Below, one piece after another: positions 31,272 through 36,746 of a stretch of DNA of 37,681 nt (position 1 is the stretch's first letter; every line of letters starts with the position of its first letter). The stretch is from Lachnospiraceae bacterium. Lineage in GTDB: Bacteria > Bacillota > Clostridia > Lachnospirales > Lachnospiraceae. A program made the translations under genes and the position numbers. Below the pieces are notes generated by a model, which was given only the letters and a program-made list of their open reading frames with translations, was not told the origin of the DNA and searched no databases. The stretch is from contig JAFSPF010000023.1 in NCBI GenBank assembly GCA_017443065.1, positions 1 to 37,681 of the forward strand. The letters are read 5' to 3'.

Positions 31272-31344
31272 GCGATAGTAGCTTAGCTGGTAAAGCGCCA
31301 CCTTGCCAAGGTGGAGACCGCGGGTTCGAATCCCGTCTGTCGCT
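31272..31344 (+). tRNA. tRNA-Gly (anticodon GCC)
   Basis: A 73-base cloverleaf. The acceptor stem GCGATAG pairs with CTGTCGC (one G-U), the anticodon stem-loop is CCACC-TTGCCAA-GGTGG with anticodon GCC, and the T arm holds GGGTTCGAATCCC. The CCA end is not encoded. It is the host side of the mobile element: the integrase gene starts its 3' end about 110 bases beyond, and the 3' half of the tRNA is the likely attachment site. Confidence 0.96.
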
Positions 31345-31357
31345 CTCTAGGGAGATT

Positions 31358-31455: not shown

Positions 31456-32736
31456 TCAAGCGTCTAAGACATCGAGGGCATTTGCCATATTAAGGCCGGT
31501 GTAGTAGTTCTTTTTGGCAACTTCGGGGGAGTTTCCGAACAGCTGGGCTGCCATAATAATATTCCCCCCTGAGCGCTCCACAACATCGGTGATGGCGTTT
31601 CTGCGGAAGCCGTGAGGCCCCCGGATCAGGTCTCTGGAGATCGGGATATCCAGCTTCTTGCACATCCTCCGGTAGAAGTTGTAAACCGTGTTGTTTGTGA
31701 TGACGCCGGTCTGTGACTGTGCCGGAAAGAGATACTCGCTGTTGATGTTGTTTTTCCTGTGAACCGCCAGGAGTTTTTCCAAAAACTGGCGCAGCTCTTT
31801 TGTGATAGGGTAACGCCTGTTCTTGTTTGTCTTGGTGTGGTTCACGATTTTGAAGTACTCTTTCTCGGAACCGCCGTTGCGCTTGACGGTGATCTGTTCG
31901 CGGCGGATGTCGATGTGGCTTTCATGGATGTCCGACCAGCGCAGGGCCGGGACTTCACCTCTCCGAAGCCCCATGATGATCTGCATCTCAAGGGCGTAGG
32001 CCGGCAGATAGGCCGGATTGGCAAGGTGCTTTTCCCGCAGGTAGCACCGTATCTTTTCCATTTCCTCATCGGAGTATCCGCGTTCAGATACGTCTTTGTC
32101 CGGAAGAATCATGTTCGCGAAGCGCCTGTCTGACCAGTTGATCCGGGCGTAGGGATTGTCGATAATCCAGTATTCTCGGTAACAAAGATCGAATACCTTC
32201 TTGATGATCGACTTCATGCTGTTGAATGCTTTCTGCCTCAGATCGTACCGTGTCAGGTTGTGGATACAGATGTTTTCGATGTCCCGCTTGGATATCGTGT
32301 GCACATCCATGAGTTCGAAGTCGGTACCGCTGAAAAAACGCCGGTAGGTGTCGTCGTCGCGTCCGACCGTGTTCTGGACGGACAGGCGTTTTTCAGAGTC
32401 CTTTACGTACTTCAGCCGCTCCTCATTGACGATGCGGTATACATCCCGGAATGTCCTGCTGAACGTGCCGTTGATACCTTTTTCGTGATCGTAGATTTTG
32501 TCGATCAGTTCCTCCGGACTTTTGGCTTTGATATGCCTCCTTCCGTTTGATTTGGATTTGTCTTTGACGGCTACATGGTAGTAGCCGTCAGAACTGGGTT
32601 GTGCGGGTATTGCATACTCTTCAGCGATGCGTTTTTTCTCGTTTTGCATATGCTCGCATACTTCCCGCATGACGGATGGGTTTACATTAGCATATTTGTT
32701 TCCCGGGAACAAGATGATCTTTTGTTTCTTATCCAT
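31456..32736 (-). CDS. Tyrosine-type site-specific integrase
   Basis: A 426-residue phage-type tyrosine recombinase. It has an N-terminal SAM-like arm/core region (about 85-200) and a catalytic domain (about 215-420). Active residues visible are Arg258 in GLRRGE, His375 and Arg378 in PHGFRR, and Tyr411/Tyr412 in KKNYYTG; the usual second His/Trp position appears to be Asn402 in LFGNSPEVAKKNYY. The first 60 residues include a basic stretch that could bind arm sites. It should catalyse integration into and excision from the tRNA-Gly site; no excisionase is evident, though the small protein at 37305-37511 might be a DNA-binding helper. AAGGCG lies a few bases before the ATG. The gap to the relaxase gene is 30 bases. 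Confidence 0.95.
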   Translation of the reverse strand: MDKKQKIILFPGNKYANVNPSVMREVCEHMQNEKKRIAEEYAIPAQPSSDGYYHVAVKDKSKSNGRRHIKAKSPEELIDKIYDHEKGINGTFSRTFRDVYRIVNEERLKYVKDSEKRLSVQNTVGRDDDTYRRFFSGTDFELMDVHTISKRDIENICIHNLTRYDLRQKAFNSMKSIIKKVFDLCYREYWIIDNPYARINWSDRRFANMILPDKDVSERGYSDEEMEKIRCYLREKHLANPAYLPAYALEMQIIMGLRRGEVPALRWSDIHESHIDIRREQITVKRNGGSEKEYFKIVNHTKTNKNRRYPITKELRQFLEKLLAVHRKNNINSEYLFPAQSQTGVITNNTVYNFYRRMCKKLDIPISRDLIRGPHGFRRNAITDVVERSGGNIIMAAQLFGNSPEVAKKNYYTGLNMANALDVLDA

Positions 32737-32766: not shown

Positions 32767-34461
32767 TTACAGTTCCATGTCATTACTACGCTTCTTTTTC
32801 GTGCGGTCGATGCGGTTCGCCTCCCGTTTATCCACTTCCTGCTGATGCTTTTGGAGTGACGCCCGCAATGAGCGGCGCTCACTTTCCGGCTTGATACGCC
32901 GGCCGCCGGATGAACGTTCAGGCTTCGATTTTTCCGGAACCGGTTCGTTCAGCACCTTCAGAACGGATTCTTTCTTCAGCTCTTCAGTCTTTTGTTTTTC
33001 TGTTTCGCCATCATCTTTTGGAAGCATATCGCCGAGAAAACGCTTGATGTCCAGCATCGCCTTTGATTCGTCCTTAACCGCCTGCAACCCGGCTGCCTGT
33101 TTTTTTTCGTCCTTGTCCAAATCAGACAGCCTTGCTTCTAACGCTGTTCGTGCACGTTCGGGATTCGGAAATTTTTTCAAGGCGTGATATGCCTTGTTAT
33201 ACTTTTGGAATTCCTCTTTGTGCGCCTCCTTAAAGGCTTCCTTCCGTTTCTTGAAGACGATTTTGGCGTATTCGTCATACAGATGCTGATACTCATCCAC
33301 CGTATTCATGTTTGTAAGGTCTTTCCAGATTTCTTTCTGCTCCTTCCGGATGTCGGTCAGCTTCTTATTGATCTCTCCATATCTTGATTTCTGTGCGCTG
33401 ATATAGGATTGCAGATGTCCCACCGTGTAGATCTCCATTCTTCTGAGATCGGATGTCATCTTTGCAAACTTTTTCAGATCGGTAAGAGATCCCTTTTTCT
33501 GCGCACCGCGCGACCAGTCCATACGCTCAAGCTTGCGTTCATCCATCCTTGTCGACAGGAGAGAAAGTACGGAAATGTCCTCCGGAGTCTCGTTCTTCTT
33601 TGCCAGTTCTTTCGTAAAGGACACGATCCATACGGCAAGTTCGGAAAGACGGTTTCTGACCATTCGGAGCGCTGCGTTTGTCGCCCTGATCCATCGATTA
33701 CGCGCACCCTTATCCGTCTGAATGCCCTTGACCTCCATCTGACGGACGTTCGGTCCCTCGTGGACAGACGGTATGATATCCAGTCCCTGATCCTCATACG
33801 ACCGGTGATCGATGCGATGCGATAACCCTTTCGCGGCAAACTTCTCATTTACCAGATCCGCCCATTTCTCTCGCCAGTATTCCAGTTTTTCCGGCGTTCC
33901 CCAGTCGGTAAGCGGTACGGCGTCAAACTCAAAACTCCCGTCCGGTTTTCGTATCCGCTCGCCGTTTTCATCAAGATGATATTCCCGGCGCTGCTTGTTC
34001 TGCCACCTGCCGTTTTCATCAAGTGACCGTATCGGGACCAGCACATGGAAGTGCGGATTCTCGATTCCGCCATCCTTATCGGGATTATGAACAGCCAGAT
34101 CACAGATCATACCCCCGGAAACGAAATAGCGCCGCACAAACTCCTGTGCAAGCGCTATGTTTTCCTCCATGGTCAGTTCATTTTGCAGGGCGATATCGAA
34201 GCTGTAACATAGCTGGGCATCCCTGCGTTTTTCAATCTGTTCTACCGCGTTCCAGAGTGTTGCTCGGTCTGCATACTCTGGCGGGGCGTGTGCCGGCAGC
34301 ATAATCTCCGTGTGGATGACACCTCCCTTCGCCGTGTAATCGTGTGTCATGCCGTCCCACTCGTTCAACAGTTTTTCTCCCGCCCGGTACGCCGCCGCCG
34401 CGACCGCCGTCCGCCCCGCAGATCGCTTGATCTGATCCACATGAAAGTGATACATTGCCAT
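32767..34461 (-). CDS. MobA/MobL (MOBQ) relaxase
   Basis: A 564-residue mobilization relaxase that would nick one strand at oriT and pilot it into the recipient. The N-terminus has family features: MAMYHFHVDQIKRSAGRTAVAAAAYRAGEKL in pieces, with Tyr25 at the position of the RSF1010 MobA catalytic Tyr, and the metal triad His125 (AVHNPDKDG), His137 and His139 (NPHFHVLVP). The C-terminal half (about 300-564) is charged, coiled-coil and basic, with no primase or helicase domain evident. The ATG overlaps the DUF3847 stop by one base (TAATG), so translation is likely coupled. The family usually acts on an oriT close by; a fitting site is at 35495-35549. Confidence 0.95.
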   Translation of the reverse strand: MAMYHFHVDQIKRSAGRTAVAAAAYRAGEKLLNEWDGMTHDYTAKGGVIHTEIMLPAHAPPEYADRATLWNAVEQIEKRRDAQLCYSFDIALQNELTMEENIALAQEFVRRYFVSGGMICDLAVHNPDKDGGIENPHFHVLVPIRSLDENGRWQNKQRREYHLDENGERIRKPDGSFEFDAVPLTDWGTPEKLEYWREKWADLVNEKFAAKGLSHRIDHRSYEDQGLDIIPSVHEGPNVRQMEVKGIQTDKGARNRWIRATNAALRMVRNRLSELAVWIVSFTKELAKKNETPEDISVLSLLSTRMDERKLERMDWSRGAQKKGSLTDLKKFAKMTSDLRRMEIYTVGHLQSYISAQKSRYGEINKKLTDIRKEQKEIWKDLTNMNTVDEYQHLYDEYAKIVFKKRKEAFKEAHKEEFQKYNKAYHALKKFPNPERARTALEARLSDLDKDEKKQAAGLQAVKDESKAMLDIKRFLGDMLPKDDGETEKQKTEELKKESVLKVLNEPVPEKSKPERSSGGRRIKPESERRSLRASLQKHQQEVDKREANRIDRTKKKRSNDMEL

Positions 34462-34769
34462 TACGCTGCGTCCTCCTCTTTGGGTTTGTATTTTGCCGAT
34501 TCGGAATCGATGATCTTTACGACATCCGGCAGCATCAAGATCTGCTCCATCATTTCATAAAACGCTGTCTCCGGCATCGGCTTTACCTGCGGAACGATGC
34601 TCTCGATTGCCGCGCCGCGCGTGATCAACTGATGTGCCCGCTTCTTCCTGTCCTTCTGTTTCAGATACCGCATCCGATTCTCCAGAATCTGCTGACGGTG
34701 TTCCAGCTGGTTGATTTTTACCTCTGTTTCCTCGATTTCTGTCTTGTACTCTTTGCTTGTTTTTTTCAT
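34461..34769 (-). CDS. DUF3847 family small protein
   Basis: A 102-residue charged protein. The N-terminal half is a coiled coil (EIEETEVKINQLEHRQQILENRMRYL in parts); the motif KKRAHQLITRGAAIESIVPQ and the end MMEQILMLPDVVKII match DUF3847, a family that accompanies MobA/MobL genes in Firmicutes elements. It may be a relaxosome accessory protein; that role is inferred from position. I chose ATG 34769, 5 bases after GGGAGG; an ATG at 34805 would start within the terminator hairpin. A terminator-like hairpin lies just upstream (34804-34835). Confidence 0.82.
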   Translation of the reverse strand: MKKTSKEYKTEIEETEVKINQLEHRQQILENRMRYLKQKDRKKRAHQLITRGAAIESIVPQVKPMPETAFYEMMEQILMLPDVVKIIDSESAKYKPKEEDAA

Positions 34770-34803
34770 AGTAGCCTCCCTTCGTGAATGTGCTTTTGGA
34801 TGC

Positions 34804-34835
34804 AAAAAGACCGCTCTGCACTAAGCAAAACGGTC
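34804..34835 (-). terminator. Terminator/attenuator hairpin ahead of the mobilization genes
   Basis: On the minus strand GACCG (34835-34831) pairs with CGGTC (34813-34809), with TGC/GCA inside, and is followed by five T (34808-34804). It lies between the DUF3784 and DUF3847 genes. A frame opening MAIAKKPDAKKPAKNKN starts at 34899 and runs into it, a possible leader peptide. Confidence 0.6.
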
Positions 34836-34939: not shown

Positions 34940-35290
34940 TTACATTTTGATATACCTTTGTCCTTCTCGCCGATTAATTTTTACAGATGAAGCTATCGCA
35001 TATACTACCGTTCCGGCAAAAACAAGATACACGAGAATTATAAAAACCTTTTTGTCAAAAACAGAGTATAACCCAAGCAGGATAAAGGCCACACTTAATA
35101 GACAGAAGCAAATGGCAGATTGCCTGTACCACGGCTTTTTATTCATCGTTTTTCTCTCTTCTTCGGTCGCATATAAATATGCATTGTTCAGCAGGAAACC
35201 CTTCTCCTTAAAACTTCTAAAACTGAGTAACGCAAGCACTCCTGCCATTATGAACGGTATAATCACACTTACTATTGCATCCGTTGGCAT
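34940..35290 (-). CDS. DUF3784 family small membrane protein
   Basis: A 116-residue protein with three hydrophobic helices: about 4-25, 55-75 and 82-102. The segment FKEKGFLLNNAYLYATEEERKTMNKKPWYRQSAICFCLLSVAF, read in pieces, fits DUF3784, a family of short integral membrane proteins common in Lachnospiraceae mobile elements with no known function. GGGAGG lies 6 bases before the ATG. It sits between the hairpin array with the presumed oriT and the mobilization genes, so it may help in transfer or exclusion, but nothing in the sequence shows this. Confidence 0.75.
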   Translation of the reverse strand: MPTDAIVSVIIPFIMAGVLALLSFRSFKEKGFLLNNAYLYATEEERKTMNKKPWYRQSAICFCLLSVAFILLGLYSVFDKKVFIILVYLVFAGTVVYAIASSVKINRREGQRYIKM

Positions 35291-35327
35291 ATTTTACCTC
35301 CCAAAACTCCAAACTAATCCGCTCTAC

Positions 35328-35372
35328 TTTGTATCCACGACAAGACACGACGAGGGTTGTTGTGGATACAAA
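35328..35372. repeat. 16-bp inverted repeat at one end of the hairpin array
   Basis: TTTGTATCCACGACAA (35328-35343) pairs with TTGTTGTGGATACAAA (35357-35372), 16 bp with one G-T pair and a 13-base loop. It is 38 bases before the DUF3784 ATG on the minus strand, so it would also fold in that gene's leader RNA. Confidence 0.8.
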
Positions 35373-35385
35373 ACCCACAGGGATA

Positions 35386-35449
35386 GACGCGCCAGCGTCG
35401 CAAGGGCTGTAGGCCCTTGTTGCGGTATCGAAGATACCGCCATGCGACG
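35386..35449. repeat. Cluster of hairpins in the middle of the array
   Basis: Three stems follow one another: GACGC/GCGTC (35386-35399), CAAGGGC/GCCCTTG (35401-35419) and GCGGTATC/GATACCGC with a GAA loop (35422-35440). A longer CGTCGCA (35396-35402)/TGCGACG (35443-35449) pairing could enclose the last two. No coding sense is apparent: this DNA is structural. Confidence 0.75.
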
Positions 35450-35494
35450 GAGGGAAGGACAAATTTCTGTCATCCGGCGTCGCCGCCTCGCAGA

Positions 35495-35549
35495 GCGCAC
35501 GCATACTCTCCGCAGGAGAGTATAGAAGTGCGCCCTTGCTTTGCAAGGG
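35495..35549 (+). other. oriT: Candidate oriT of the MOBQ relaxase
   Basis: A 9-bp hairpin (ATACTCTCC, GCA loop, GGAGAGTAT at 35503-35523) is followed by AGAAGTGCGCCCTTG. AAGTGCG/CCCT fits the nic core of RSF1010/pSC101-type (MOBQ) oriTs, where a hairpin of similar size and 3-base loop also lies just 5' of nic. The nick would fall between 35532 and 35533 on the plus strand. GCGCAC/GTGCGC (35495-35500, 35528-35533) extends the stem, and a second hairpin CCCTTGC/GCAAGGG begins at the nic (35533-35549). With this polarity the ORF6N side would enter the recipient first and mobA last. Confidence 0.72.
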
Positions 35550-35621
35550 ATGTTACTTTCTATTCTGCGTCAGGCAAATATTACGTTCCTTATTGCAGAC
35601 AGGATTGTATTTTGTATCTCT

Positions 35622-36644
35622 CTACCTCAGGATCAAATGTGGCTTATTCATTAGCACCTTCAGGGTATTCTTGTATTCGGAAATATCCATTATCCTGGTT
35701 ATCGTTGTGATTTTATTCCCCGCATCCTTACTCGATGCACCGCAATGGTATACCTTCATGTCCTTTGTCCCATAATCGAGAACTATATATCGATCATGTA
35801 CGGCATTCCCGGATTGAATAAACTGTAATGAAATGCTGGGATACTCTGTGAGAAAATCATTCAATTCTGACAGCCGAAGTTTCTGGCGTCCGGCCTTATT
35901 GTCACTTATGACAGTGATCTTCACGCCTGCCTTTGCATGTGTCAGATGTTGCAGTGTCTTCACACCAAGGTAATCGTCAACTACGATGATGTTCTTCTTT
36001 GCTCTGCGATATATTTTTTGATACGCAACATCCGCCGTGAAAGGCTCTCCGTTAAGAATCAGTATCTCCTCGTTCTTCACCCCTTGATCAAAAAGAAGCA
36101 TCAACTCTGACAGATCAGATTTTGTGACCATGCTCTCTTTTATCTCGCGGACTTTACCTTCAAGGTTTTCCTGCCTTACTTCCAGTAATTGTAGTTCACG
36201 CTGTGGCAATAGTTTTTGATTTTGCCGGATGTAATGTGTCATTTCCACAAACGCATCCATAATGAACAAACTCGCCGTAATTGCCCGTTCCGTATGCAAG
36301 ACAGATGTCAGCATCGCCACGCCCTGTTCGGCATAAACATACGGAGGATATTTTGAATACTTTCCCTGTTCCAGTTCTAAGATGCCAGTTTGGCATCTTA
36401 GAATTTCATAGTACTCCTCTCGTGTAAGTTGGAAGCATAACCGTTCCGGGAATCTTTTAATATTTCGCTTCATCGCTCTGTTTAGCGCTCCTGTCTCTAC
36501 ACCAAAGTATAGCGCTATATCCGCATCCAGCATAACGTTTTGTCCGCGAACGGAGTATATCTGCCGCTTAACAGTTTCCGTGTCAATCGGTTCAAAAACC
36601 ATTACTTCTGACTTGGTTTTATTCTGCGTTTTTGATTTGCTCAT
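35622..36644 (-). CDS. ORF6N domain protein with PLD-like C-terminal domain
   Basis: A 340-residue protein. Residues about 20-110 form an ORF6N DNA-binding domain (IYSVRGQNVMLDADIALYFGVETGALNRAMKRN and FPERLCFQLTREEYYEILRCQ, then YPPYVYAEQGVAMLTSVLHTERA, in pieces), a fold related to KilA-N and typical of phage and element regulators. A coiled-coil linker follows (about 145-190). The C-terminus (about 200-340) has a PLD-like pattern: VHDRYIVLDYG fits HxK/RxxxxD with His283, Arg285 and Asp290, followed by YHCGASSKDAG. I chose ATG 36644, which follows GGGGAG; an ATG at 36656 has no ribosome site. A perfect 29-base dyad lies 74-102 bases upstream and again inside the gene. It could be an autorepressor, a nuclease or a defence gene. 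Confidence 0.85.
   Translation of the reverse strand: MSKSKTQNKTKSEVMVFEPIDTETVKRQIYSVRGQNVMLDADIALYFGVETGALNRAMKRNIKRFPERLCFQLTREEYYEILRCQTGILELEQGKYSKYPPYVYAEQGVAMLTSVLHTERAITASLFIMDAFVEMTHYIRQNQKLLPQRELQLLEVRQENLEGKVREIKESMVTKSDLSELMLLFDQGVKNEEILILNGEPFTADVAYQKIYRRAKKNIIVVDDYLGVKTLQHLTHAKAGVKITVISDNKAGRQKLRLSELNDFLTEYPSISLQFIQSGNAVHDRYIVLDYGTKDMKVYHCGASSKDAGNKITTITRIMDISEYKNTLKVLMNKPHLILR
36375..36403. repeat. 29-base perfect dyad inside the ORF6N gene
   Basis: Arms TTCTAAGATGCCA and its exact complement around a 3-base centre (GTT on the plus strand). It encodes residues ILRCQTGILE of the ORF6N domain. The same dyad occurs at 36718-36746 with one different centre base. Confidence 0.9.
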
Positions 36645-36717
36645 TTGTCTCCCCATTATTATCGCATTCTTTCGAATATCCTCTGTTTTACTATGGCAAT
36701 GTCTGCACCACTCTATT

Positions 36718-36746
36718 TTCTAAGATGCCAGATTGGCATCTTAGAA
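36718..36746. promoter_or_regulatory. 29-base dyad upstream of the ORF6N gene (candidate operator)
   Basis: Identical 13-base arms to the internal copy, centre GAT instead of GTT. Its position 74-102 bases before the start codon suits an operator near the promoter. A smaller hairpin GGTCAT/ATGACC lies beside it at 36761-36776. The rest of the 36657-36976 gap holds no gene that I can see. Confidence 0.65.

Follow-up and report, generated by a model that had tools for sequence, protein, structure and literature searches.

The complete 37,681-nt contig JAFSPF010000023.1 of a Lachnospiraceae bacterium (GCA_017443065.1), referred to here as the window, contains a cluster of hairpins upstream of a relaxase gene, which raises the question of whether this cluster marks the place where a mobile element is nicked for transfer to another cell. 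To our knowledge, mapped oriT sites are scarce for elements integrated in clostridial genomes, and transfer is therefore hard to predict from sequence. Judged by the sequence comparisons set out below, the site is very probably (roughly 90%) the origin of transfer (oriT) of a MobQ-class element, mobilizable or conjugative, that has integrated into the chromosome of its host. Sites of this kind are already known; the hairpin arrangement and its conservation are worked out here in new detail. Among the open-access papers searched we found no covariation analysis of MOBQ oriTs, no recognition of an upstream module such as the one reported here, and no description of a multi-hairpin core that abuts the nick exactly or of its order-wide covariation.

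The element and its relaxase

From position 31272, a tRNA-Gly(GCC) gene is followed by genes for a tyrosine integrase, a MobA/MobL relaxase, a DUF3847 and a DUF3784 protein, then by a 331-bp hairpin-rich intergenic stretch and a gene for an ORF6N-domain protein, with these five protein genes (integrase to ORF6N) lying on the minus strand:

31272..31345, plus strand: tRNA-Gly(GCC), the probable attachment site
31456..32736, minus strand: tyrosine integrase (Phage_integrase, 5e-13)
32767..34461, minus strand: MobA/MobL (MobQ) relaxase gene, mobA (predicted Tyr25, H125/H137/H139)
34461..34805, minus strand: DUF3847 protein (domain match), between oriT and relaxase
34940..35290, minus strand: DUF3784 protein (domain match)
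35622..36656, minus strand: ORF6N-domain protein (domain match), on the side predicted to enter the recipient first

The original prediction of a MobA/MobL relaxase with Tyr25 and a His triad was borne out. The protein matches MobA_MobL (PF03389) at 9.9e-85 and the NCBIfam MobQ model with 265.5 bits (curated cut-off 200), and its predicted catalytic residues are an N-terminal Tyr25 together with H125/H137/H139, the histidines aligning with 4HT4. Among solved structures the relaxase matches this staphylococcal nicking enzyme best (7.7e-26), which PMC4814116 gives as NES of pLW1043, the match to the RSF1010-type MobA structure 2NS6 being weaker (1.2e-7). By tblastn, the relaxase scores 166 bits against an E. 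coli MOBQ plasmid versus 118 bits against pGO400, and it is 38.6% identical to the MobQ relaxase of plasmid pECAZ153_4 over residues 1-272. The two small genes that had been placed between the site and mobA are also there, identified by domain matches as DUF3847 and DUF3784. The claimed distance of about 0.7 kb between oriT and relaxase has to be corrected: the predicted nick lies 1,071 bp from the mobA start (34461), and some 0.73 kb separates it from position 34805, where the DUF3847 gene has its 5' end. In Pusillibacter and Campylobacter records, too, the mobQ match comes with an annotated DUF3847 gene.

The window stops inside the element, whose right end lies beyond it. Within the part present, none of the seven ORFs scanned matched a type IV secretion family; the window held no match to a coupling protein (PF02534), and a search of the element's own genome with the 24-bp tRNA 3' end, allowing up to 3 mismatches, gave no second att copy. 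The truncated view of the element, the missing attachment repeat and the lack of a coupling protein on the contig, together with the existence of damaged or truncated relatives (L131-L133), would fit a once-functional oriT in an element that has since decayed. We regard decay as unlikely, since the reading frames of the integrase and the relaxase are open, the stems of the core are intact as modelled, and the core equals the consensus. A scan of genome contigs returned a single partial relative, a goat-reticulum Lachnospiraceae contig (L033) with the same tRNA-integrase-relaxase order and 81% over 1,433 bp. Elsewhere in the host genome, locus L155 (G000:C110:5349-5846) matches a VirD4-type coupling protein (PF02534, 83.4 bits) and is a possible helper element.

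Core hairpins and the predicted nick

The core of the site lies on the plus strand of the intergenic stretch and has the following parts:

35487..35495, plus strand: mini-hairpin L, CTC-GCA-GAG, directly abutting the outer arm
35496..35500, plus strand: outer 5' arm CGCAC, pairing with GTGCG in the fold centroid
35503..35523, plus strand: inner hairpin ATACTCTCC-GCA-GGAGAGTAT, 9 bp with a 3-nt loop (inverted repeats, fold, covariation)
35524..35527, plus strand: 4-nt spacer AGAA (ATAA, ATCT, ATAG and others in relatives)
35528..35532, plus strand: nic core GTGCG, also the 3' arm of the outer stem, with the predicted nick between G35532 and C35533
35533..35549, plus strand: post-nick hairpin R, CCCTTGC-TTT-GCAAGGG, beginning exactly at the predicted nick

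Direct reading and inverted repeats agree with the arrangement first proposed, in that the 9-bp hairpin with its 3-nt loop, AGAA, the GTGCG^CCCTT core and the second hairpin are all found where they had been placed, the second hairpin directly 3' of G35532 at the predicted nick. The core sequence GTGCGCCCTT occurs once in the 37,681-bp contig (0.06 expected). Strong flanking hairpins had been noted too and are present, but that was an incomplete reading of them, for they are partly conserved parts linked to the oriT: the core is larger than first described, extending leftward to 35487 with hairpin L and the arm CGCAC, and to 35367 if the upstream module is counted. Folded as single-strand DNA, 35480-35560 reaches -18.6 kcal/mol versus a shuffle mean of -11.0 (z -3.6), with a centroid that comprises the outer CGCAC/GTGCG stem, the 9-bp stem and the 7-bp post-nick stem; for 35310-35560 the z-score is -8.1. 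A hairpin thus stands directly 5' of the GTGCG^C core, as expected of a MOBQ oriT, and the inner hairpin is the likely candidate for the hairpin that the relaxase recognises. Homology would place the nick on the plus strand, between G35532 and C35533.

Recurrence and covariation beside related relaxase genes

The outer and inner stems were described by a covariance model, R1, built from the 30 sites of alignment A2. These were drawn from 49 distinct sites that had been prefiltered for a 5' hairpin; part of the 19 omitted were near-duplicates, and others had arms that were unaligned in MAFFT, were irregular or lacked the outer arm (arm problems applied, for example, to L002, L005, L006, L070, L072, L080-L084 and L087), an omission that raises the pairing figures. 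Relatives of the relaxase are encoded in 89 of 392 genomes of the host's order, and upstream DNA was taken from 89 relaxase genes, a number that merely coincides with the number of genomes. These genes are a selection of matches, mostly the strongest that reach near the N-terminus, and consist of 29 loci from the genome search and 60 further ones, with 11 stretches, for some of the first 29 loci, taken further out. An R1 site lies upstream of 79 of the 89 (three weakly), including 50 of the 60 loci outside the training set, the other 29 being training loci. For ten of the 89 there is no R1 match in the stretch searched; L031, L037 and L046 match farther upstream.

When the 392 genomes themselves were searched, R1 matched in 103. 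For 79 of the 94 best matches (E up to 1e-10), a relaxase start is listed less than 5 kb away, at distances of 100-3,360 bp (median 369), and 77 of these 79 sites lie on the strand opposite the relaxase, two on the same strand. The flanks of seven among the other 15 contain a relaxase ORF, so that a MobA/MobL gene is near 86 of the 94 in total; the remaining eight have none in the flank searched, about 4.6-5 kb of the expected side being covered in six. Seven strong matches with no relaxase ORF in the flank (L109-L112, L114, L115 and L119; about 4.6-5 kb of the expected side covered in all except L119) may be relaxase-less sites. L077 and L079 have the oriT in reversed orientation to the relaxase gene, and a short upstream module, read by eye, is turned with it. 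Because only 8 genomes in a phylum-wide sample of 398, the host's own included, match R1 at 1e-5, the exact form of the site appears to be concentrated in the host's order.

Pairing in the stems is maintained through changes on both sides. Across the 30 sites, pairing holds in 99.1% of cells in the outer and inner stems, and both-sided changes affect 39 cells versus 9.7 in shuffles, with at most 13 when the partner is slid; five pairs carry such changes versus 3.1 in shuffles, 27 of 500 shuffles attaining five, while pair types in the core stems are not more numerous (11 versus 10.1 in shuffles). Sites with GTGCG have the outer arm CGCAC in 45 of 47 cases and sites with TTGCG have CGCAA in 17 of 17, counts that arise partly by construction, as R1 contains the outer stem. 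Since it is pairing rather than sequence that is conserved, the oriT locus is most likely active as single-stranded DNA.

The [GT]TGCG^C core, in turn, is nearly invariant among the sites, and the hairpins on its two sides keep a strict register. A perfect hairpin R stem of at least 5 starts at the nick in 49 of 64 distinct sites and at offsets -5 to -1 in none of the 64, and a stem of at least 4 is present in 54, leaving 10 sites without a stem of 4 (this count of 64 left out the weakest matches L081, L084 and L087, and L125). Its first four pairs change together: CCCT/AGGG in 46 sites, CACC/GGTG in 7 and CAAC/GTTG in one. A filter-free test used 79 distinct sites picked by the core alone, 32 of them exact and 47 with one mismatch. 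The exact-core sites have the outer arm in 29 of 32 cases (4.9% of 20,000 random positions) and a post-nick stem of at least 5 in 27 of 32 (1.3% of 20,000 random positions), while a strict perfect inner stem at the 4-nt spacer occurs in only 13 of 32; among the one-mismatch sites, some of which are coding-sequence matches, 31 of 47 carry the outer-arm word and 11 of 47 a stem of at least 5. In the swap control of this test, a post-nick stem of at least 5 was present in 37 of 60, whereas 500 swaps averaged 28 and never exceeded 34, and a good part of this stem therefore follows from the common CCCTT/AAGGG letters.

On the left, 57 of 66 sites have a hairpin L that meets the outer arm exactly, versus 8.6% at random positions, a count that includes at least two mirror-strand matches, and at neighbouring offsets the figure is mostly 0 to 12 of 66, with 28 of 66 at -4. 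Its stems vary (CCC/GGG, CTC/GAG, TTC/GAA, TCC/GGA, GTC/GAC), as do its loops (GCA, GGA and GGCA, for example). DNA mini-hairpins with C-GNA-G loops are exceptionally stable, and their presence would favour single-stranded DNA over RNA as the form that matters.

This bears on another account of the hairpins, namely that they belong to an RNA, as a leader, attenuator or terminator of the DUF3784-DUF3847-mobA transcript. The region does lie upstream of the mob genes and does fold strongly, and there is a precedent for RNA at such a place, since a small RNA between mpsA and oriT is described as essential for SGI1 transfer (PMC9299015). We nevertheless consider an RNA feature very unlikely: the [GT]TGCG^C core hardly varies and is identical to those of known MOBQ sites, the region has no Rfam match at or above a family's gathering score, and in L077 and L079, where the oriT is flipped relative to the relaxase, its short module (by eye) keeps its orientation to the core and not to the gene.

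The outer 5' arm often reads, on the other strand, as a mirror of the nic core (for example in L041, L060, L068 and L089), so that the oriT is a quasi-dyad. In the window, the bottom strand would offer GTGCG^CTCTG near 35496, and in 9 of 65 distinct sites the outer arm on the other strand is GTGCGCCCTG. That the nick falls there instead is scarcely credible, as the mirror core is more variable and lacks the 4-nt A-rich spacer, and the core and the hairpin starting at it that are conserved are those of the plus strand.

Apart from these oriTs, orphan sites of the form CGCACGTACC-loop-GGTACATAAGTGCG^CC were seen in three families of the host's order, f5, f12 and f19 (L118, L121-L124, L136, L139 and L141-L148), several per genome in some, within a conserved repeat of about 150 bp that by eye immediately precedes various genes. 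The flanks of the five orphan loci checked (L118, L121-L124) contained no MobA/MobL relaxase ORF. We also considered the multi-copy orphan sites of f5 genomes as integron cassettes and rejected this, no integron-integrase match exceeding the cut-off and control genomes matching as unspecifically below it. The orphan sites could be oriT mimics of hitch-hiking cassettes.

Known transfer systems, the upstream module and a proposed route of transfer

The comparison with known sites took in pECAZ153_4 and pGO400. R1 finds a site (E 1.4e-10) in the 178-bp mobC-mobA interval of pECAZ153_4 (NZ_CP018996), a 4-kb E. coli MOBQ plasmid that is unnamed in the main text of PMC6856555 and that we took as MOBQ4-like from its layout. 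In MOBQ4 plasmids the 178-bp mobC-mobA interval acts as oriT, according to PMC6856555. Like the host site, the plasmid site has a mini-hairpin (CCC-GCA-GGG), a CGCAC arm, a hairpin, a spacer (ATAA) and GTGCG^CAC-TTC-GTG; unlike the host element, it is carried by a plasmid, adjoins a divergent mobC and has a post-nick stem of only 3 bp. Whereas the MOBQ4 oriT lies between divergent mobC and mobA, the host element has DUF3847 and DUF3784 on the relaxase strand in between. Of these two known sites, that of the E. coli plasmid appears on sequence to be the closer to the host site.

The site of pGO400, a conjugative plasmid with a pGO1-type nes oriT that is typed MOBQ and that we take to be MOBQ3, reads GCGAACG-GAA-CGTTCGC-ATAA-GTGCG^CCCTTACGGG. 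It shares with the host site the order hairpin-ATAA-GTGCG^CCCTT and has a short CCC-TTAC-GGG after the nick, but only part of the outer arm. R1 misses the pGO400 oriT (6 bits), and the outer arm is therefore not common to all MOBQ sites. A second MobQ relaxase of the host genome (L002, G000:C80), truncated by a contig end, is accompanied by a pGO1-like site, hairpin-ATAA-GTGCG^CCCTTACGGG, without the full outer arm.

Further known systems were compared as well. In RSF1010/R1162 (MOBQ1), MobA binds a hairpin just 5' of nic and contacts its base, as described in PMC4814116; the position of this hairpin is the likeness to the host site, the relaxase match being weaker. For pIP501, PMC4981023 describes an IncQ-type relaxase, TraA, that nicks at a GpC. 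Streptococcal MobQ IMEs resemble the host element in being integrated, in their PF03389 relaxase and in doing without a coupling protein (none in the window, in the host's case), and differ in their integrases, which are serine integrases in all 12 surveyed in PMC5357655, in contrast to the tyrosine integrase beside tRNA-Gly found here. The pWBG749-family oriTs (MOBP) likewise conserve a branched-hairpin fold despite divergent sequence (PMC4652767), with another relaxase class and another core. Tn1549 was considered as closest relative and set aside, its nic being RYGCTTG|C (PMC7755788) and its relaxase MOBP (PMC6856555).

The relaxase family and its residues, the recurrence near relaxases with an almost constant orientation, the compensatory changes and the match to a MOBQ plasmid together support the predicted MOBQ-type oriT. 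Yet HUH relaxases can also start rolling-circle replication, and hairpins that flank a nick resemble such origins, so that the site might chiefly be a rolling-circle double-strand origin or, alternatively, a recombination site. We think this improbable: the integrase is about 2.8 kb and the tRNA about 4.2 kb away, and both the linkage of site to relaxase and the MOBQ plasmid match favour transfer. Functions as oriT and as replication origin need not exclude each other at one site.

Upstream of the core, two further features were found:

35328..35372, no strand assigned: 16-bp inverted repeat TTTGTATCCACGACAA / TTGTTGTGGATACAAA, immediately 5' of the module and overlapping it
35367..35443, plus strand: upstream two-hairpin module (model R2), consisting of CACAGGGATAG, a hairpin and a second hairpin, AAGGGC-TGTAG-GCCCTT

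Alignment of 35328-35450 with relatives brought out a conserved CACAAGGGGTAG, a hairpin, and a hairpin with a GTGTAG-like loop. In the 20 sequences used to train R2, the host contig's module among them, 11 of 12 pairs have changed on both sides, with 53 cells affected versus 15.1 in shuffles and 87.4% of cells paired versus 68.8; pair types are not raised (20 versus 21.1 in shuffles). R2 gives 60 matches in 37 of the 392 genomes; in 55 of these matches an R1 core follows on the same strand at a distance of 7-64 bp, and none has a listed core on the other strand. As to the other five, the nic segment is missing from L132, the core region is reduced to its beginning in L131 and L133, and L134 and L135 have no core. 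A further R2 copy without R1, in L130, was the sole one in eight other stretches (L002, L125-L130, L156). A regular expression for the module, written by eye from the same sequences, matches 29 of 70 and, on the other strand, 0 of 70, and a shorter form without the first hairpin precedes other sites, again by eye. R2 has no match in pECAZ153_4 or pGO400. The module belongs to the same locus as the oriT core. Its candidate roles are, in ranked order, a single-strand priming origin, a site for an accessory factor and a small RNA. Most rolling-circle plasmids have the single-strand origin upstream of the double-strand origin, and ICEBs1, unlike most of them, has it downstream of oriT (PMC4595007).

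Taken as an origin of transfer, the site would function as follows. As long as the relaxase has not opened it, the outer stem would keep the core concealed in the donor. The MobA/MobL relaxase encoded by the element would bind the hairpin 5' of the core, and Tyr25 would cut the plus strand between G35532 and C35533 and stay on the 5' end. DNA to the right of the nick, on the ORF6N side, would then enter the recipient first and the relaxase and integrase genes last, with the re-formed hairpin stack marking the end of the transferred strand for re-joining. Relaxase binding, the exact nick, strand polarity and the role of the hairpins in termination are all inferred.

More tentatively, and at somewhat short of even odds for the whole, the clostridial MobQ oriT may be a composite, in which the two-hairpin module stands at a fixed short distance from three abutting hairpins (L, outer plus inner, and R), the outer stem borders both of its neighbours without an unpaired base so that the nick falls exactly at a hairpin junction, the locus acts single-stranded, and the module is a priming or accessory site for the arriving strand. 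A hairpin that abuts the nick exactly raises the question of how MobQ relaxases open and re-seal the site. For annotation, the two-part covariation model makes it feasible to find the oriTs of these elements and of possible relaxase-less hitch-hikers.

The ORF6N gene also contains a 29-bp palindrome, without an exact match in the viral collection, whose perfect 13-bp arms (TTCTAAGATGCCA-NNN-TGGCATCTTAGAA) occupy 36375-36403 within the gene and recur at 36718-36746 in its upstream region.
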